DNA of 33,916 nt, from the NCBI RefSeq assembly GCF_947260015.1, contig NZ_CAMYOM010000029.1:1-33916 (forward strand), written 5' to 3'. The stretch's first letter is position 1; every line of letters starts with the position of its first letter. Positions 1,293 to 33,916 of the stretch are shown here, piece by piece. The position numbers were made by a program, and so were the translations under genes. Below the pieces are notes generated by a model. The model saw only the letters and a list, made by a program, of their open reading frames with translations. It had not been told where the DNA came from and did no database searches. This stretch comes from an uncultured Eudoraea sp. (GTDB taxonomy: Bacteria > Bacteroidota > Bacteroidia > Flavobacteriales > Flavobacteriaceae).

Positions 1293-1447
1293 TCAGGAAT
1301 TAAAAATTTGCTTAAGTATTTTATCGGTTATTAAATAGGTGGGTTTTACACCCGTTGTTCCAAGGCCCCCGGAAGCTAAGGTACTACCAGATTCCAATGG
1401 ATTATCTGACGCATAATAGGCATATCTGACCTTAACTTCCTCTCTTA
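1293..1447 (-). pseudogene. Out-of-frame 3' tail of the DUF6909-like gene
   Basis: Past the TAA at 1445-1447, the frame one base back stays open and reads SIREEVKVRYAYYASDNPLE, then a Gly/Thr-rich stretch and KPTYLITDKILKQIFNS, ending at TGA 1293-1295. The 52 residues are protein-like. The YASDNP motif resembles the catalytic-Asp SDN/SDK region of PNP/UDP-phosphorylase-fold enzymes. The stop lies 2 nt before the wzz ATG, which suits the true end of the gene. The frames would join if one A were added to the AAAA run near 1454. A larger deletion is also possible, because the ExEGA motif expected upstream of SDN is absent from both frames. Confidence 0.7.
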
Positions 1448-2839
1448 TGCTTTTCCTGATTTTAGAAAACCATTCCCCTCAAAATCTTTGGCGCATAGTT
1501 CATTCTTAAAGGGGTAGTTATCCGCTGTTCCTTCAAAAATATGTGCAGACGGAATCATTAAATCTCCTTTACCGCCCTCGAGAATGCCTGCTTTCCCCAT
1601 TATTGAAATTGAAGCCACATCTAAAAAGATGTCTTGGCCATTTTCTAAAACAAAGGGCTTTAAAAGTTCGTCAATTGTTTCATAGGCCTGTTCCCCAAAG
1701 GCATAGTCCATTACAAATATAACAGGTTTTTTATCATCAGGAAGGTTCATATTTAGTTCATAACAACAGGCGTCCTGCCCTAATTTCGCCATATCAAATA
1801 TCTGAACATCTATACTCGTTCCTGAGGTGTCCTCTAAAGAGATCATGCCGTTCCGTTTTGCTTTGGTAATTACTTTATTGCGTAAAGCCATATTATCCGT
1901 GGAACTTAAAGCCTCATATATCTCAAGGGATCCGTTTGAAGGAAACTCTTTTCTAAGCGCTTTTCTGGCATATAAAGAATTTACCACGCTATGCATATTG
2001 GAGCTGATAATATGTATTGGTCTTTTTAATAAATTGTGTGTGTTTAAGGTTTTCTTTATGGTTTCGGCCCATATTTCGCCGTGAATATGATGCCCCAGGC
2101 GATCCCTTAACATACTACTAAAGGTTATTACTCTTTTCTCGCCACCCGTTTCCTCCTCAATAGATAATTTACCTAACCAATACAGAATCTTCAAAAATCT
2201 TTCAGGTTCTTTCTTTGTTGCCAGTTTATCATATACCTCTAATACCTCCACAAATGATCTTCCAAGGATGTTTGCAGTATGAATTAATGCAGTTTCTTTC
2301 TCCACTTGAGTAAGCTTGGCTTTGGTAGCTGCTTTTTCTAATTTTTTCCAATCGCGAATAGTCTTATTTGTGTCTTCTATTAAAACGCGTTGGCATATTT
2401 TATCGGCTTCTATATACAAAAAGGTAAGGTGTGTAAGTATGTCATAAATATCTGAGCGTCCTCTTGTGATCTCAATATTCATCTGCTCACTATCTATTCG
2501 GTAGCAATTTCTTCTCCTTTTGGGCGGGATAATTGCTTTAAAGTGGGATTTTCCATAACCTTCATCTGAAGTAAGATTAATATACCTGCACTGCTCTATT
2601 CCGGAAGGTAATCGTTCCAATACATATATAAGTCCATTAAGTTCAGCCTTATCTTCAGCCACTGAACCATAAATTTCCGGATGTAAAGCTAAAAGGGCAT
2701 TTCTCAAAGTCTCCCCTGAAACTCCCGTAGGTTTATAGAAACCTCTATTGAATAAATGACGCATAGTAACATACATCCGCTCAATGGCATTTGTAGATTC
2801 CTGTGCTCTGGTATTATCTTTAACTATCTCCATAGACAT
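1445..2839 (-). CDS. DUF6909-like protein, PNP-fold-like, C-terminus disrupted by a frame change
   Basis: The main frame codes for about 464 residues from ATG 2839 (MSMEIVKDN); ATG 2833 (MEIVKDN) is an equally good start. I recognise it as a Bacteroidota family of unknown function, most likely DUF6909. Visible features are a charged N-terminal helical part containing TRAQESTNAIERMY, a central HHIHGEIWA, and a C-terminal PNP-like part with VMDYAFGEQAYE and GKAGILEGGKGDLMIP, then HIFEGTADNYPF. The frame stops at 1445, just after FLKSGKA, while the expected C-terminus continues in another frame. As read, the product lacks the SDN-containing end and is probably inactive or altered. A TAATTTTG promoter box ends 3 nt before ATG 2839. 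The substrate is unknown; a nucleoside/nucleotide hydrolase or phosphorylase is a guess from the fold-like motifs. Confidence 0.65.
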   Translation of the reverse strand: MSMEIVKDNTRAQESTNAIERMYVTMRHLFNRGFYKPTGVSGETLRNALLALHPEIYGSVAEDKAELNGLIYVLERLPSGIEQCRYINLTSDEGYGKSHFKAIIPPKRRRNCYRIDSEQMNIEITRGRSDIYDILTHLTFLYIEADKICQRVLIEDTNKTIRDWKKLEKAATKAKLTQVEKETALIHTANILGRSFVEVLEVYDKLATKKEPERFLKILYWLGKLSIEEETGGEKRVITFSSMLRDRLGHHIHGEIWAETIKKTLNTHNLLKRPIHIISSNMHSVVNSLYARKALRKEFPSNGSLEIYEALSSTDNMALRNKVITKAKRNGMISLEDTSGTSIDVQIFDMAKLGQDACCYELNMNLPDDKKPVIFVMDYAFGEQAYETIDELLKPFVLENGQDIFLDVASISIMGKAGILEGGKGDLMIPSAHIFEGTADNYPFKNELCAKDFEGNGFLKSGKA

Positions 2840-2842
2840 TAG

Positions 2843-2850
2843 CAAAATTA
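2843..2850 (-). promoter_or_regulatory. -7 promoter element TAATTTTG
   Basis: The minus strand reads TAATTTTG, a full match to the Bacteroidota -7 consensus TAnnTTTG. It ends 3 nt before ATG 2839 and 9 nt before ATG 2833. No TTG is seen at the expected upstream distance. Transcription would begin at about the start codon, favouring a leaderless mRNA and possibly the 2833 start. Confidence 0.4.
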
Positions 2851-6086: not shown

Positions 6087-8993
6087 ATGAAGACAAATTT
6101 AATACAGTTTCTTTTTGCGTTACTATTGCTAACAACTTTTGGGGCAAGTGCGCATTGGAATGAGTCTATACACGAAATTACATCGGCAGATGTAATAACT
6201 TATCATAATACAAGCATTGAAGCCATTACTAATGATGTTAAGACTTCAACACCGAATACTGATGATGATTTTAAGCGAATGGCCAGAGAATACGGCATCC
6301 CTACAAGATTAGTCAAAGATTTTTTATCAGCAGAAAACGGATACTACGTTATTGCCGGAGTTTACGGAGATCGGGCTAACGCCAATAAATTTGCTCAAAA
6401 ATTAAGGCTTAAGCGACTTAATCCTGTTATCATTACACATCCTGTCAGTAACTTAAACTATGTTACCCTAGCCCAGCATGAGAATTGGAAAGAAGCCATT
6501 AATTCATGTATTTCGGCAATGAATGGTAAATATCAGTCTGAGGTTTGGATTATGAATGTTCAGGGACGTAATTCGGACCACAGTGATAAGAAGTTAGATA
6601 TTGAAAGCAACGAATTAAAAGAAAACTCACTTAATACATCAAAAGAATTTATAAAATCAGCAAAGAAAAATAAAATTGCGGCCAGAATAGTTCCCAGGTT
6701 CAAGGGTTTAAAGAATGGTTATTATATAGTTGCAGGTGTTTTTGGGGATGTTCACAATGTTAAATCATTCCAGGAAAAACTAAGTAAAAAAAATCTGGTT
6801 TCCAAAATAGCAACTCACCCTGAAAGTCAGTTAAACTATGTATATATCAAGGAATATAAAGACTGGGAAGAGGCAATAAATGCCTGTAAGTCTAATCTAA
6901 ATGGAAACTATTATGATAAAATGTGGATCATGAATGTCTTTGATCCAGGTGAAGTAGTAACAACAGAAGATTTGTATACCTTGGAGAAGAATAAGAAAAC
7001 TGTTTCAGAATTCTCCAATCAAGTCAATCCGGAGTATATTAATCTACTTGCACCATCCAGAACACATAAAAAAGGGTCTTCCATTTTTACTAATGACAAA
7101 CTGCTTCAAAAGGCAGATTTATACTTTAGTAAAATGTGGTATGCCGAAGCTGCGGAACTTTACGAGCAGGTACTGGAATCAGATCCTAATAATCAATCTT
7201 TTAAAATAATAGAAAAAGCAGGGGATTCACACTATTATAATACAAATATGGAAAGAGCTTATTACTGGTATGATAAGCTGTATACTAATTATAAAAATGA
7301 GATGTCCGCAGAGAATATCTTTAAATATGCCAATTCTTCGAAGGGTACCGGGAAGTACGCAAGAGCCAAACGCTTGATGCGATTGTATGATCGAGAAATG
7401 AAAAACGGAAATTCGCGTGCACTGGAAGATCTATCAAGGGCAACTCCCAATGAAATTGTTCTAGACAATATATTAAATACGGAGGAAACAATTAACATTG
7501 CAAATTTGGCAATAAATTCAGAATATTCAGATTTCTCTCCAATGTTCTATAATGATGACGAGATGGTATTTTCATCAGCTATGGATTCTTCTTTTTTTAA
7601 TACCAGACGGTATAAATGGAACAATCAACCCTATCTTGATTTATATGTCGCTAAAATTAATAAGGAATCACAGGAAGTTAGGGATGCCATTAAATTTTCA
7701 AAAAAGATAAATACCAAATACCATGAAGCATCCGTCACATTTTCTCCGGACAATGAAACGATGTACTTCACTAGAAATAATTATGGTAAAAAGTTAAAAC
7801 GAGACAAAAACGGAAACAATAATTTAAAAATATACATGTCCAAAAAAATGGATGGTGAATGGACTGAAGGGAAAGAACTCCCATTTAATAGCGATGATTT
7901 TTCTACGGGCCATCCTGCCCTTAGCCCTGATGGTAAACAACTGTATTTTGTTTCCGATATGCCCGGAAGTATCGGTATGACTGATATTTTTGTAGTTGAT
8001 GTACTTGGTGACGGTCAATTTTCCGAGCCTAGAAATCTTGGCCCGGAAATTAACACCGAACGAAAGGAGATGTTCCCGTTTATTAACGAAAAGAAACTCT
8101 ATTTTTCTTCAGATGGACATGTTGGCATAGGCGGGCTGGACATATACGAGGTGGCTTATGATGACGAAGCAGGTTTTCTGGAGGTAAGGAACGCAGGTCA
8201 ACCAATAAACAGTAAAAAAGACGACTTCTCATACATTGTTGATGAAGAAACTCAAAAGGGTTTTTTTGCATCAAACAGAAGAGGTGGTAAAGGGGATGAT
8301 GATATTTATTCATTTCAAAGATTACTGCCTGAAGAAGCAAATGAAAATGCTATTGCAGGCGTTGTGACAGATTTAGTTACAGGGGAAGTAATGCCCGAAG
8401 CTTTGGTAATGCTCCTGGATGAAAATAATATTAAGCTAAAAGAAGTAGTTACCGGTGAAGATGGAAGCTTTGTGTTCGAGGATCTCGATAGCTCTACAAA
8501 ATATATCTTAAAGACAGTTAAAGGCACTTATTTTATTGATGAGCAATCTGTACTTACTAAGGACAATGAGTTAGTGCATGCCGATGTATCCATGAAAAAA
8601 CTTAAAGAACTAATTATTCTGGAAGATGGGATCAAAAAGTTAAAAATAGATATGATCTTCTTTGATTTTGACAAGTTTTATATCAGAAATGATGCTGCCA
8701 ATGAATTGGATAAACTTGTTGAGGTAATGAATGAGCATAAAACCATGGTTATTAAAATTGAATCTCACACAGATTCCAGGGGTAAAAGAGCTTATAATAA
8801 ATATCTGTCAGATAAAAGGGCAAAATCCACAAGGGAATATCTGATATTGCAGGGAATTTCTCCAGATCGCATACAAAGCGCTATAGGGTATGGAGAAGAA
8901 AGATTACTCAACGAATGTGATGGTACGGTTAGGTGCAGTTCGGCCAAGCATCAGCTCAACAGGCGTTCAGAGTTTATAATTGTTAAGATGTAG
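6087..8993 (+). CDS. PorE-like OmpA-family protein with two SPOR-like modules, TPR, PD40 and regulatory domain
   Basis: A 968-aa exported protein with a signal peptide of about 22 residues (LLLLTTFGASA). Domains in order: SPOR-like module 1 (84-158), SPOR-like module 2 (210-284), TPR-type helices (about 335-450), a PD40/WD40-like beta-propeller with repeats such as ALSPDGKQLYFVSD (about 471-744), a carboxypeptidase-regulatory-like beta-sandwich (about 752-845), and an OmpA C-terminal peptidoglycan-binding domain (about 852-968). The last contains SHTDSRG and LSDKRA, supplying the usual Asp/Arg pair for diaminopimelate. TPR-PD40-CRD-OmpA is the architecture of PorE, a periplasmic T9SS component tying the machinery to the wall. 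The N-terminal module pair is extra and also occurs in the PorP/SprF protein at 31293. It stands alone between terminator-flanked units. A gliding-associated PorE paralogue is likely, but true PorE function is not proven. Confidence 0.82.
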   Translation: MKTNLIQFLFALLLLTTFGASAHWNESIHEITSADVITYHNTSIEAITNDVKTSTPNTDDDFKRMAREYGIPTRLVKDFLSAENGYYVIAGVYGDRANANKFAQKLRLKRLNPVIITHPVSNLNYVTLAQHENWKEAINSCISAMNGKYQSEVWIMNVQGRNSDHSDKKLDIESNELKENSLNTSKEFIKSAKKNKIAARIVPRFKGLKNGYYIVAGVFGDVHNVKSFQEKLSKKNLVSKIATHPESQLNYVYIKEYKDWEEAINACKSNLNGNYYDKMWIMNVFDPGEVVTTEDLYTLEKNKKTVSEFSNQVNPEYINLLAPSRTHKKGSSIFTNDKLLQKADLYFSKMWYAEAAELYEQVLESDPNNQSFKIIEKAGDSHYYNTNMERAYYWYDKLYTNYKNEMSAENIFKYANSSKGTGKYARAKRLMRLYDREMKNGNSRALEDLSRATPNEIVLDNILNTEETINIANLAINSEYSDFSPMFYNDDEMVFSSAMDSSFFNTRRYKWNNQPYLDLYVAKINKESQEVRDAIKFSKKINTKYHEASVTFSPDNETMYFTRNNYGKKLKRDKNGNNNLKIYMSKKMDGEWTEGKELPFNSDDFSTGHPALSPDGKQLYFVSDMPGSIGMTDIFVVDVLGDGQFSEPRNLGPEINTERKEMFPFINEKKLYFSSDGHVGIGGLDIYEVAYDDEAGFLEVRNAGQPINSKKDDFSYIVDEETQKGFFASNRRGGKGDDDIYSFQRLLPEEANENAIAGVVTDLVTGEVMPEALVMLLDENNIKLKEVVTGEDGSFVFEDLDSSTKYILKTVKGTYFIDEQSVLTKDNELVHADVSMKKLKELIILEDGIKKLKIDMIFFDFDKFYIRNDAANELDKLVEVMNEHKTMVIKIESHTDSRGKRAYNKYLSDKRAKSTREYLILQGISPDRIQSAIGYGEERLLNECDGTVRCSSAKHQLNRRSEFIIVKM

Positions 8994-29110: not shown

Positions 29111-29232
29111 ATGAGAGCAAAACTATCCTTTAAAATCAAGTATTTCTTTTTGACCATACTGCTGTTAGGATGCATGCAAGTGCCTCCGGTTCTTTTAATG
29201 ATTACTGGGTTAATTTCACATGGAGTCCTCCC
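29111..29232 (+). pseudogene. Out-of-frame signal-peptide segment of the Ig-like T9SS gene
   Basis: ATG 29111 opens MRAKLSFKIKYFFLTILLLG followed by Cys-Met-Gln, a textbook export signal: basic start, hydrophobic core, small residue. This frame ends at TAG 29230-29232, but the downstream Ig-like protein continues in another frame from about 29170. Adding one base near TGCATGC (29171-29177) would join the signal to HASASGSFNDYW. The expected longer mature N-terminus (family members have an additional stretch before ASASFNDYW, as I recall) is also missing, so a small deletion is a second explanation. Confidence 0.6.
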
Positions 29233-31284
29233 TTAGTTAACGGCGATAATGAATTTATTCTTGAACTATCAGATGCGAGTGGCAGTTTTGCAAGTCCGGT
29301 AGAACTTGCCCGAGATGCCACAAAAAATACAAATTTTGACTTCTACATTCCATTTTCAATCCCTACTGATACCAGGGGTGAAGGCTATAGAATGCGTGTT
29401 AGAAGCACTAGTCCGGCCGTTATTGGAGCGGCATCTGTCGCATATCCAATGTATTATATAGATGTAAATTCCGGTCTTACAATCAGACAGCAAGGCAATG
29501 CCGACTTTGGAGACGGTACCGCTGAAGTCTGCAACGGGAATTCAATTACCCTGGAGGTTTATAATCTTCCTAATGCAAATACCTATCAGTATAACTGGTA
29601 CAGAAGCGGATCGCCTTTAGCCGAAAAAAGTGAATCCATTACGGTTTCACAGGCAGGAATGTATAATGTAGAAATTGATTATGGTGCATGCTCCGGATCC
29701 GGTAATACCCTTTCAAACATTATTGATGTAACAACAGGGGCCAGCTTAGGAATAGCTATTAACACACCAACTAAAACTGATTTGTGCGCTGGTGAAACTG
29801 AAAATCTTGAAGCAAACATAAATAATCCCGGTTTAACATATACCTGGTATAAAGATAGCACAGCCATCCCTTCATCTAATAATTATATTTATACTGTAGA
29901 TGCCTCTGTGCCAGGGTTTGAAGGAGATTATCAGGTCGAAATTTTCGGGCCCGGGGCTTGTGTGGAAAGATCTTCAGCCTTGACTATCACTAATGCAGGG
30001 AATTTTACGGTAACCAGAAATAATCCTGCCAACGTAGTAGTTCTACCAGGACAAAACGAAACATTAAGCGTTACAACTAACGCTTCTTCTCCCGCTTATC
30101 AATGGTATAGAGATGGTAGCCTTATATCTGGGGCTACAAGCAACAGTTTGTCAGTAAATGAAACAGAAACCGGGACATATTTTGTCCGTGTTTCCTTAAG
30201 CGGAGGACCTTGTTCTTCAACCTCTATAGATTCCGAAACGACTACGGTAGTTACTCCGGCGTCTTTTGAGATAGTAGTTGATTATGCGACTGCTTATACC
30301 GCATGTGCGAATAACAGTATTGTCCTTGATGTTACTACCATTAATGCTATAGACTCAGGTGGAGGGGTGACTGATGTAACCGCTTCTCTAATCTCTTCAT
30401 TTACATACCAATGGAAAAAAGACGGCAGCCCTGTAGGTGGAGAAACTTCAGCAAGCTTAAGTTTAACGGATATTACTGAAAACGGTAATTATGAAGTAGA
30501 CGGCAATATTACTACTTATAATGCAACATCAAATTCACTGGCTGTTCAACTTTTAGTAAATGAGACTTTAACCATTAACAGTACCGGTCTTATTAGTTGC
30601 GGTCCTGCTGAGCCAATTACAATAAACACCACCACGAATTTGTCTGGTGAATCTTTTGATTGGTTCAAAGATGGTGTAAATCTAAATACAACCGATATAG
30701 CTCTGACGGTTACAGAGCCAGGAACGTACCAATTACAATTAGACAGAAACGGGTGTCCGCTTCCATCAAATGAAATAGTTATATCTGGTCTTGATCCTGA
30801 ATTGATAACTCTTGACCCTTCCGGTACAATTGTATTTCCAGAAGGTGGCTCAAGAACAGTTACCGCAAGTGGTGGTGACTCATACAGGTGGTATGATTCT
30901 AGTAATACTGAAATGAGTAATTCCTCTTCCGTAACCTATACAGAGGAAGGCTCTTATATTCTTATAGCAACTATAGGAAATTGTGAAGTAAGCAGAAATG
31001 TAACTGTAGAATATCTTGACAACTTTAAAATACCGAATGTTATAACTGTCAATGGTGACGGAATAAATGATCAATGGATTATTCCTAATTCCTACTCCAA
31101 TAAGGCTGAAGTGAATGTGACCATTTTCAACAGCGCAGGACAGGAAGTACTAAATGAATTTAATTATCAAAATAACTGGCCTGAAACATCAATGACTTTT
31201 GCCAAGCAAAACATGGTCTTTTTCTATAAGATTAAAGACGCTAATGAAGTTTTAAAACAAGGCACCATAACCATTATTCGTTAA
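29170..31284 (+). CDS. Ig-like surface protein with gliding-motility-associated (type B) T9SS C-terminal domain
   Basis: A 704-aa open frame, here without its own signal peptide because the signal at 29111 is out of frame. It begins ASASGSFNDYWVNFTWSPP and carries several Ig/PKD-like units with the repeated pattern Y-x-W-[YK]-[KR]-[DS]-G (YNWYRSG, YTWYKDS, YQWYRDG, YQWKKDG, DWFKDG), each with paired cysteines. The C-terminal end has NVITVNGDGINDQWIIP and FYKIKD, the gliding-motility-associated C-terminal (CHU_C, type B sorting) domain. Such proteins are secreted by T9SS and bound at the cell surface or released. The PorP/SprF gene follows after 8 nt, in the usual pairing of type B cargo with a PorP/SprF partner. 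Confidence 0.82.
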   Translation: MHASASGSFNDYWVNFTWSPPLVNGDNEFILELSDASGSFASPVELARDATKNTNFDFYIPFSIPTDTRGEGYRMRVRSTSPAVIGAASVAYPMYYIDVNSGLTIRQQGNADFGDGTAEVCNGNSITLEVYNLPNANTYQYNWYRSGSPLAEKSESITVSQAGMYNVEIDYGACSGSGNTLSNIIDVTTGASLGIAINTPTKTDLCAGETENLEANINNPGLTYTWYKDSTAIPSSNNYIYTVDASVPGFEGDYQVEIFGPGACVERSSALTITNAGNFTVTRNNPANVVVLPGQNETLSVTTNASSPAYQWYRDGSLISGATSNSLSVNETETGTYFVRVSLSGGPCSSTSIDSETTTVVTPASFEIVVDYATAYTACANNSIVLDVTTINAIDSGGGVTDVTASLISSFTYQWKKDGSPVGGETSASLSLTDITENGNYEVDGNITTYNATSNSLAVQLLVNETLTINSTGLISCGPAEPITINTTTNLSGESFDWFKDGVNLNTTDIALTVTEPGTYQLQLDRNGCPLPSNEIVISGLDPELITLDPSGTIVFPEGGSRTVTASGGDSYRWYDSSNTEMSNSSSVTYTEEGSYILIATIGNCEVSRNVTVEYLDNFKIPNVITVNGDGINDQWIIPNSYSNKAEVNVTIFNSAGQEVLNEFNYQNNWPETSMTFAKQNMVFFYKIKDANEVLKQGTITIIR

Positions 31285-31292
31285 CCAGAAAA

Positions 31293-33916
31293 ATGAAATT
31301 AAAACTCGCATACCTGTTGTTGTTCATCATGGCGCTTACCAAAGTAAGTGCCCAGGAAGATAATCCTTTTATCTCTTATGATGTGCCTTCACAGAACCTG
31401 TTAAAGTTTAACAGATTTCTTATAAATCCGACCTTCTCAACAGTTCGTGAAGACTTGTCATATATTAATCTTTTACATAGAAACCAATCGGTATCTTTTG
31501 ACGATAATAACCAATTATATTTCCTTAGTTACAGTGGTAGGATTGATGATAGATCAGGGCTGGGATTAAGTCTATATACACAGAGGGAGGGAGTTGTTAG
31601 TAATTACGGAGTGTTAGCCAATTATGCTTATGGTGTAAAATTAAGCGATAAAAGTAATTTCACCTTTGGAGCCAATCTATCCTATTACAGTAGCGGTTTG
31701 GATCAAAACAGAGCTAACCCTATTGAAATAGATCCACTGCTGAGTGGTTTTCAGGATAGTTCTCTGCTCTCCTTTCAACCAGGATTTAACTTTTCATATG
31801 ACCAGTTTGATTTCGGTGTTTTTGCGGAAAACTTATTTGATTATAACCTGAAAACAAATGAATCTGTTACGGACTTTAAGGACAAAACTTTCTCAGCTCA
31901 TTTACAATATACTTATAAGTTGGAAAATAACTCCGGAGTATTTGAAAACTCACGTTTGATGCCATTGGCCCGGGTAAGACAAGTTGGACAGGAAGATATC
32001 GTTTTAGGCGGTAATATAATTTTTGACTTACCCAGACTAGGTTGGATACAGGCCGGATATGATAGTTTTTATGGGGCTTCAGCCGGAATTGGTTTTAACC
32101 TTGGAAAAAGACTCTCTCTTGGATATACGATGGAGAAAGGCCTGTCGAATAGTTTTGACAACTTTGGTACTACCCATGAAATTTCTTTTGCTTACTCTTT
32201 CACACCTAACCTTACTGAAGACAGGGTAATGTTAGAAGAAAGCGAAGAAGCAATCGCAAATATTGAAGAAGAACAAGAAGCTATAGAAGAATCTCTCGCT
32301 TCTGATGATGAGGAGATTACAGAACTCAAGCGCCGTCTGGCAGAAAATGATGCAATCCTTGCTGAGCTCATGTTCAGGCAGGACTCCATGGAGACAAATC
32401 GCGAAAAAGATCTTGAAAGAAGATTTGAGATGGTTATGCGTATGGTGCGTAATGAAACTAATGGAGAGCGACCTGATCTTGAAGAAAAAGCCAGGGAGAT
32501 GTACCTCATTAATAATGACAAAACCGCGTTGGTTGAAAATGTTGAGAAGCCAAGACCTACTGAATACAAGCCCATAGTCAGGAAAAAAACGCAGGCTGAT
32601 GTATTTATTAGGGAGGCAAAACTTAACAATGTTAAAAGCCAAAAATTCCGAGACCTGAAGGGTGTGGAAAATGGGTACTATGTAGTTGCCAATGTTTACA
32701 AAGGCGAACACTACATGAATAAATTCATGGACAATCTATATAGTCAGGGCTTAAACCCGGATTATATTGACAATCCCAAAAACGGAATGAAGTACGTATA
32801 TCTAAAAAGATACGACACCTGGAAGGAGGCTCTGGCCGCGCACAAATCAGGATTAAATGGAACCTATAACGACGAATTATGGGTTATGAATGTTGATAAC
32901 CGCTATACCAACGAGGCCTACGCTGAAAATGCAAATAAAGTTCGTGAAAAATCGTCCGAATATGATACAGCTGTACTACAAAAGAATGTTGTTGTCAGGG
33001 ATAATGTAACAGACAGTGAACCAAAAACGAAAAGTCAATTTATTAATAGTGTTGGCTCCGCTTATTATATTATAGCTAATGTCTTTGCAAACCCTAAAAA
33101 TGCCAATCGATTTGTAAAATTATTAAACTCCCAGGGGCTAAGTGCCAGTTACTTTATAAATCCCGAAAATAACTATCGGTATGTTTATTTAAAGCGACAC
33201 GAATCCTGGAACAATGCTCTCATATCTTACTACTCTAAACTAAATGACGCATATGACGACAAAATGTGGATCATGCGCGTCACACCAAACTTAATAGTAG
33301 GTATATCACAAGAATTCAACAATTTTGAAGTTAGGTACCAAAATAACCTTAAGGGTGACCTGACTTTCATAGCCAACAATATTGTTAACAGAGACGGAGG
33401 CACCGGAAGTACCCAACCGGAAGACCCTTATAATTCCACCGGTAACTCCTCTACTTACAATGACTGGCTTAATATGCAGTACATTGATGTGGATGGTGAC
33501 CCTACCACCTTTAGCTCAAGCACGGCTACATTTACCTATCCACAGGCAAGTTGTAATCTTGTCCGATATGCCGGATTATATTGGTCTGCAACCTATCCAA
33601 GTGCTCAGGCCGGACAGCCTTTAGGTACAGGTAGGCAAAACGATTTTAACCAGGTAAAACTAATGGTTCCTGGTGGGGCTTATGTAGATGTTGTTGCAGA
33701 TGAAATCTTATTCGACGGATTCACTAGTGGTGATCCTTCTGTGACACAAAATAGCCCTTATGCCTGTTATGCAGATATAACAGCGCTTATAACCCCTTTG
33801 GCAGATCCATCAGGGGATTATACCGTTGCAAACATACGATCTGTTGTTGGATCACTTTCTCCCGGAGGCGGTGCAGCTGGCGGATGGACACTTGTTGTCG
33901 TCTATGAAAATCCGAC
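31293..33916 (+). CDS. PorP/SprF protein with two SPOR-like modules, fused in frame to a T9SS surface-protein N-terminal region (cut by window edge)
   Basis: From ATG 31293 the frame is open to the window end (874 codons). Signal peptide 1-20 (MALTKVSAQ); PorP/SprF beta-barrel about 21-307, ending near HEISFAYSFTPNL; a Glu-rich coiled coil about 310-420 with KRRLAENDAILAELMFRQDS; SPOR-like modules at 460-534 and 589-663; then a nine-residue joint TPNLIVGIS; then from residue 673 QEFNNFEVRYQNNLKGDLTF. The rest resembles the N-terminal region of giant type B surface proteins, with YIDVDGDPTTFSS, YAGLYWSATYP and GGWTLVVVYENP. PorP/SprF proteins are outer-membrane barrels that dock T9SS cargo. 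Normally cargo is a separate gene with its own signal peptide, so the joint at about 33282-33311 is unusual: real fusion, deletion or assembly error. Domain calls are firm; the single-protein status is uncertain. Confidence 0.78.
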   Translation, partial: MKLKLAYLLLFIMALTKVSAQEDNPFISYDVPSQNLLKFNRFLINPTFSTVREDLSYINLLHRNQSVSFDDNNQLYFLSYSGRIDDRSGLGLSLYTQREGVVSNYGVLANYAYGVKLSDKSNFTFGANLSYYSSGLDQNRANPIEIDPLLSGFQDSSLLSFQPGFNFSYDQFDFGVFAENLFDYNLKTNESVTDFKDKTFSAHLQYTYKLENNSGVFENSRLMPLARVRQVGQEDIVLGGNIIFDLPRLGWIQAGYDSFYGASAGIGFNLGKRLSLGYTMEKGLSNSFDNFGTTHEISFAYSFTPNLTEDRVMLEESEEAIANIEEEQEAIEESLASDDEEITELKRRLAENDAILAELMFRQDSMETNREKDLERRFEMVMRMVRNETNGERPDLEEKAREMYLINNDKTALVENVEKPRPTEYKPIVRKKTQADVFIREAKLNNVKSQKFRDLKGVENGYYVVANVYKGEHYMNKFMDNLYSQGLNPDYIDNPKNGMKYVYLKRYDTWKEALAAHKSGLNGTYNDELWVMNVDNRYTNEAYAENANKVREKSSEYDTAVLQKNVVVRDNVTDSEPKTKSQFINSVGSAYYIIANVFANPKNANRFVKLLNSQGLSASYFINPENNYRYVYLKRHESWNNALISYYSKLNDAYDDKMWIMRVTPNLIVGISQEFNNFEVRYQNNLKGDLTFIANNIVNRDGGTGSTQPEDPYNSTGNSSTYNDWLNMQYIDVDGDPTTFSSSTATFTYPQASCNLVRYAGLYWSATYPSAQAGQPLGTGRQNDFNQVKLMVPGGAYVDVVADEILFDGFTSGDPSVTQNSPYACYADITALITPLADPSGDYTVANIRSVVGSLSPGGGAAGGWTLVVVYENP

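Follow-up and report, generated by a model that had tools for sequence, protein, structure and literature searches.

The open reading frame that seems to join a PorP/SprF-type outer-membrane protein to the start of a giant adhesin, in a draft genome of an uncultured Eudoraea sp., is most probably a fusion in appearance only. Alignment with sister genomes suggests that an assembly error has removed a stretch holding the stop codon of one gene and the start of the next, at the boundary between sprD and sprB. The case is an ordinary one and not a new kind of protein. The original prediction had read the frame as a docking protein fused to its own cargo, forcing 1:1 coupling between them, and had offered as a fallback either a deletion that removed a stop and a leader or an assembly error. 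The fallback turned out to be right, with 63 nt missing and an assembly error the likelier of its two causes.

The window, meaning the whole stretch of DNA that was analysed (33916 bases), is the entire contig C29 of the draft, G000, which has 98 contigs. The relatives used for comparison belong to the genus Eudoraea (Flavobacteriaceae) and are E. adriatica DSM 19308 (G003), E. chungangensis (G005), the uncultured Eudoraea 2-1786-n2 (G006) and the Eudoraea MAGs G001, G002, G007 and G008.

The open frame and the genes within it

The frame is free of stops from the ATG at 31293 to 33914, where the window ends, and it encodes 874 amino acids; it closes only at the contig end, inside the second gene, sprB. 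The open frame is as the original prediction had described it, and so are the positions of its motifs: MWIMRV at residues 658-663, TPNLIVGISQ at 664-673 and QEFNN from 673. The predicted series of a PorP/SprF barrel, a coiled coil and two SPOR-like domains was confirmed by profile matches and by a structure model, and the features are collected in the table.

Features of the sprC-sprD-sprB region, in window coordinates
Feature	Coordinates	Strand	Evidence
sprC-like gene, Ig-like domains and CHU_C type B T9SS sorting domain	29111..31284	+	profile matches, G001 alignment
sprD-like gene: signal peptide, PorP/SprF barrel, coiled coil, two SPOR-like domains; stop codon absent at joint	31293..33296	+	PF11751, TIGR03519
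PorP/SprF beta-barrel, residues 56-303	31458..32201	+	AlphaFold2 model, Foldseek
Long helices, predicted coiled coil, residues 335-408	32295..32516	+	AlphaFold2 model
First SPOR-like domain, residues 449-535	32637..32897	+	alpha/beta pattern in model
Second SPOR-like domain, residues 590-663	33060..33281	+	Pfam SPOR sub-threshold, model
Joint: sprD tail against sprB signal-peptide end; 63 nt absent between 33296 and 33297	33282..33308	+	alignments with G003 and G001; same layout in G008
sprB 5' piece (giant gliding adhesin), truncated by contig end	33297..33914	+	identity to E. adriatica protein

PF11751 covers residues 31-301 of the window protein with 209.3 bits (cut-off 22.3, E 1e-61), which places it in the PorP/SprF family, and TIGR03519 covers residues 2-303 with 204.6 bits (cut-off 90.55, E 2e-60). 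The Pfam SPOR profile scores 18.6 bits, under its 21-bit cut-off. The window's own sprD-like sequence was aligned with 39 of the 75 full sprD-like ORFs found in related loci, and a SPOR match at E 0.01 or better was found in 35 of the 40 aligned sequences, the window's included; the first SPOR-like part shows a 37% match to the second copy. AlphaFold2 gave a model of moderate confidence (mean pLDDT 62.7, pTM 0.37), and Foldseek placed its barrel beside FadL-type barrels, other porins and chain F of the T9SS complexes 8gl6 and 6h3i. A sequence search of solved structures returned no matches at E 0.01. The first cysteine of the window protein does not come before residue 754, so the SPOR-bearing PorP has no Cys-Xaa-Cys in a periplasmic C-terminal tail, the feature by which SprF is recognized. 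Elsewhere in the window, positions 6087-8993 hold a separate 968-aa ORF with two regions like the SPOR-like modules (37-38% identity at 6264-6947).

Ahead of this gene, the sprC-like protein matches PF13585 with 47.1 bits (cut-off 27), plus Ig_2 and Ig_7, in a profile search, and scores 28.8 against TIGR04131, under the cut-off of 35. The part of the frame after the joint, only about 206 N-terminal residues of SprB, is 92-93% identical to a 4544-aa protein of E. adriatica with 16 SprB-repeat stretches and a CHU_C domain. The sprB-type protein of G006 has 3937 aa, 15 SprB stretches and CHU_C. A further part of sprB lies on another contig of the draft, C19, running from 55621 downwards; its 3' piece has 6 SprB stretches and CHU_C, and sprF follows. 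SprB repeats together with a CHU_C sorting domain, the features that define a SprB adhesin, are thus found in the orthologues and in the C19 piece.

Directly after sprB, a 313-aa PorP/SprF protein is encoded in E. adriatica, in G006 and in the draft itself. The copy on C19 matches PF11751 at E 9e-76, and in both the draft and E. adriatica the protein ends in Cys-Arg-Cys, a tail of the Cys-Xaa-Cys form. The full sprCDBF order is seen on one strand in G006, as a 751-aa CHU_C protein, a PorP-like protein, the 3937-aa SprB/CHU_C protein and the 313-aa PorP/SprF protein, and the last three genes stand in the same order in E. adriatica. The draft has its cluster genes spread over C29 and C19, two contigs that synteny with E. 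adriatica places side by side; sprB is split by the ends of both contigs, and 842 aa of the E. adriatica protein (about 2.5 kb) are absent between them. Judged from sequence, the two parts of the frame are a sprD-like gene and the start of sprB, inside a putative sprC-sprD-sprB-sprF cluster whose sprC and sprD are named from gene order and domain content.

The joint in related genomes

Compared with both G001 and E. adriatica, the window is 63 nt short at 33296/33297, and this is the sole gap in the aligned stretch. Lost with these nucleotides are the stop codon of sprD and, from sprB, the start and the greater part of the signal peptide. The length of 63 is divisible by three, so the frame continues through the joint. 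In E. adriatica, G001 and G008 the SPOR protein ends six residues past MWIMRV, and the stop is followed at once by an ATG, with zero bases between. The last residues of the sprB signal peptide in these three genomes match those at the window's joint, so that TPNLIVGISQ, which had been suspected of being a signal-peptide remnant, does hold the end of one. The original prediction had suggested aligning sister genomes across the joint to look for a stop and a new signal peptide, and both are present in the relatives. The distance from the joint to the end of C29 is 620 nt.

A total of 397 genomes of the family were searched with the joint, and 252 of them match somewhere; among the matches listed, a stop-free run through the whole joint query occurs only in the window itself. 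The boundary was also compared locus by locus at 80 named loci, the best of 120 confirmed relatives. A stop followed by a sprB-like part is found in 74; the stop comes one to seven residues past the SPOR match, and from there it is 66 to 1642 nt to the adhesin-like start. The other six show a stop without similar cargo (2), a contig that runs off (1) or no SPOR end (3). A separate, complete sprD-like ORF of 600-900 aa, ending in MWIM and a short tail, is present at 75 of the 80. Within the genus, an orthologue of at least 80% identity is found in at least 7 of 9 genomes among the matches listed; the stop is seen in 6, and the G002 contig ends before it. An open boundary in an independent genome was found at none of the 80 loci, and the idea of a natural lineage of fused genes was rejected on this count and on the listed matches in the 397 family genomes.

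These comparisons leave the claim of a carrier fused to its own cargo without support, since in the relatives the first gene ends at a stop and the second opens with its own start and a complete signal peptide. A real fusion would put a carrier barrel and a giant adhesin into a single chain and would bear on how the T9SS hands over its substrates. The frame is indeed open, with nine residues from the last SPOR motif to the adhesin. Against a working fusion, with the barrel covalently bound to the adhesin in 1:1 stoichiometry, are its absence from all 74 named loci in which both parts are seen and the adhesin's own downstream PorP/SprF protein with a Cys-Xaa-Cys tail. In addition, SprF handles SprB by its C-terminal domain in the available text of PMC12618676, so that an N-terminal tether would be expected to give no usual coupling. 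The chance that the draft encodes such a working fusion seems very small.

A new internal start, from which SprB could still be exported separately, was also considered and judged unlikely from hydropathy and sequence. The nearby ATGs lie in MWIMRV, and the stretch after them reaches a peak 12-residue hydropathy of 1.41, compared with 2.19 and 2.70 in two sister signal peptides, and is followed by Pro-Asn.

The boundary itself is variable within the genus. After the same sprD end, the sprB start is of one type in G001, G003 and G008 and divergent (51%) in G005. In G006 a sprB with a different start comes right after the same sprD stop, and its N-terminus is unlike the window's among the matches listed. 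These differing starts suggest, at the level of sequence, that adhesins may be exchanged at the gene boundary. Two contigs, C105 of G002 and C136 of G007, stop no more than about 15 nt away from the sprD-sprB boundary, as though the assemblies branched at this point.

It is conceivable, though unlikely, that a mixed population carried different sprB alleles after the same sprD and that the assembler joined different paths. The ends of the G002 and G007 contigs and the different start in G006 would fit this, as would the absence of a similar cargo start for G002 and G007 among the matches listed. On the other side, G000 yielded no second copy of the joint region, and there is no sign that G000 stems from a mixed sample. 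A mixed population would be one possible cause of an assembly error, so the chances given to the two overlap.

Other lesions in the draft

The joint is one of several places where the draft falls short of its relatives. At the start of sprC the window is 82 nt short compared with G001, near 29170; the homologous ATG at 29111 meets a stop, and the 704-aa sprC ORF that was listed starts at an unrelated ATG (29170) and has no signal peptide. A DUF6909 gene on the reverse strand (window 1296-2845) is frameshifted by a shortfall of 145 nt at 1466-1469 compared with E. adriatica, and the 57 residues past the break are 100% identical to E. adriatica. On C19, a gene for an AMP-binding enzyme is 49 nt short compared with E. 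adriatica, and sprB carries two frameshifting changes: an exact 35-nt tandem duplication (L169, 11646-11715) and a 50-nt net loss some 0.6 kb upstream of it. The longer contig C1 has one break only: 34 N stand in a row where about 71 nt are present in E. adriatica. This run looks like a scaffold gap of the wrong size, although the N might in principle mask a withheld stretch.

Frame breaks were scanned with ORFs of at least 150 aa whose best match had at least 60% identity and at least 30% coverage; the sprC-start lesion and the shortfall at the joint were missed by these scans and come from the sister-genome alignments. The full scan of the draft took in 3 of its 98 contigs. ORFs of E. adriatica placed on G000 gave 5 breaks in 102,760 aa, of which the 24,565 aa on C19 and C29 account for four, and the reverse probe, ORFs of G000 placed on E. 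adriatica, gave 0 breaks in 101,365 aa. As controls, stretches of sister genomes were scanned (38 kb of G001 and 120 kb each of G005 and G006). No break was found in 10,663 aa of G001 or in 19,652 aa of G005, and one in 22,727 aa of G006, a 1-nt break toward the end of a 256-aa ORF; the same scan found no indels of the 35-145 nt size in these sister stretches.

In all, six lesions lie on C19 and C29 within 90 kb, and one on C1. Three of the six are in sprB or at its start, a fourth is in sprC, and two are in genes outside the cluster. Their number over this distance, and their presence both in the spr cluster and beyond it, speak against their being real. Selection was estimated over 11 segments, covering sprD, four sprB pieces, sprF, the DUF6909 and AMP-binding genes before and after their breaks and sprC after its break, with G001 as the reference for sprC and E. 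adriatica for the others. The dN/dS values fall between 0.005 and 0.097. Values below 0.1 imply that the genes have been constrained since the species split, and that the lesions are thus either very recent or not real; the tested segments give no sign, in sequence terms, of long-standing decay. We infer that the lesions are probably assembly errors.

As a side observation, the middle part of sprB on C19 (E. adriatica residues 1068-2885) has a dS of 0.40 to E. adriatica, while dS is 0.83-1.11 in the 5' and 3' pieces of sprB, in sprD and in sprF, and 0.55 in one short sprB stretch. The low dS of the middle part may reflect recent recombination.

Some points count against an assembly error: the joint is free of N; the lesions are dense on C19 and C29 and nearly absent on C1, so their cause may be local and not assembly-wide; and four of the six hit sprC or the beginning or body of sprB, a pattern also expected of a decaying operon. 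This leads to the other half of the fallback, a real and recent in-frame deletion in the strain that joins sprD to sprB, which we consider improbable. Such a chimera would be exported on the SprD signal peptide, with the barrel in the outer membrane and the adhesin start tethered to it in the periplasm; its passage through the T9SS would be expected to be abnormal and SprB-based gliding effectively lost, perhaps as one hit in a decaying sprCDBF locus. The frame is kept across the joint, and disruptive indels are found also in sprC and in the rest of sprB, as expected of a dying operon. However, sprC past its lesion and sprB on either side of each of its lesions keep a dN/dS below 0.1, sprF is intact, and similar lesions are found outside the operon, in the DUF6909 and AMP-binding enzyme genes. 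The exact 35-nt tandem copy and the mis-sized N run look like traces of faulty scaffolding. In neither G001 nor E. adriatica is the stretch flanked by direct repeats at a spacing of 63 nt; the repeats found near the boundary there are spaced 14, 50, 57 and 112 nt.

Slippage between flanking direct repeats was considered separately and rejected, none having been found in window positions 33100-33916.

That a true 63-nt deletion yields a SprD-SprB chimera, with the adhesin borne on the C-terminus of a SPOR-tailed barrel, appears very unlikely. If the chimera were made, the SprB N-terminus would be tethered in the periplasm and surface display would be expected to be blocked, and a true deletion would be a natural experiment on whether SprB can leave the cell with a tethered N-terminus. 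With an assembly error as the favoured explanation, the lesson is a practical one: in-frame losses at zero-gap gene boundaries of draft assemblies can mimic gene fusions, and where a fusion lies near a contig end in a repeat-rich adhesin gene, a check against sister genomes should come first.

The cluster and known gliding systems

The frame would then mark a mis-joined place in the draft, at the boundary of two separate genes of a sprCDBF-type gliding cluster. In the cell, the SprD-like protein and SprB are most likely separate. The SprD-like protein would stay as a barrel in the outer membrane, its SPOR tail presumably in the periplasm, with SprC as its probable working partner. SprB would be exported by Sec on its own signal peptide and then pass through the T9SS with SprF as carrier.

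Published work on carriers is consistent with this pairing. Type B substrate genes are described as usually clustered with carrier genes in the accessible part of PMC10202324, and a Cys-Xaa-Cys tail is given as a mark of SprF, the carrier of SprB, in that of PMC12635249. The available text of PMC12618676 reports that SprB and Fjoh_3952 are each carried by a PorP/SprF-like protein encoded immediately downstream, and that SprF, whose gene lies just downstream of sprB, acts on SprB via the SprB C-terminal domain. The same text notes exceptions to the rule: three orphan type B substrates have in common a carrier whose gene lies elsewhere. Under the downstream-carrier rule, the SPOR-bearing SprD-like protein would be the partner of SprC, and SprF that of SprB. 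The pairing of docking protein and cargo assumed in the original prediction is therefore probably wrong, as sprB has its own SprF downstream and the SPOR-bearing PorP follows sprC, with its type B sorting domain. The supposed fusion would link the carrier of one pair to the cargo of the next.

The primary paper on the sprCDBF operon of Flavobacterium is said to be that of Rhodes 2011. The order sprC-sprD-sprB-sprF is reported for the gliding-motility operon of Flavobacterium in the available text of PMC5879114, and the Eudoraea cluster appears to follow the same plan: a type B protein, a PorP-like barrel, a giant SprB-repeat adhesin and a SprF-like protein. The 313-aa protein on C19, outside the window, resembles SprF of F. 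johnsoniae in its PF11751 domain and Cys-Arg-Cys tail. Compared with PorP/SprF carriers of type B T9SS substrates, the window protein differs in its coiled coil, its two SPOR-like domains and its lack of a Cys-Xaa-Cys tail. In contrast to the Flavobacterium operon, this draft is without the stop of sprD and the start of sprB, and has extra indels in sprC and sprB.
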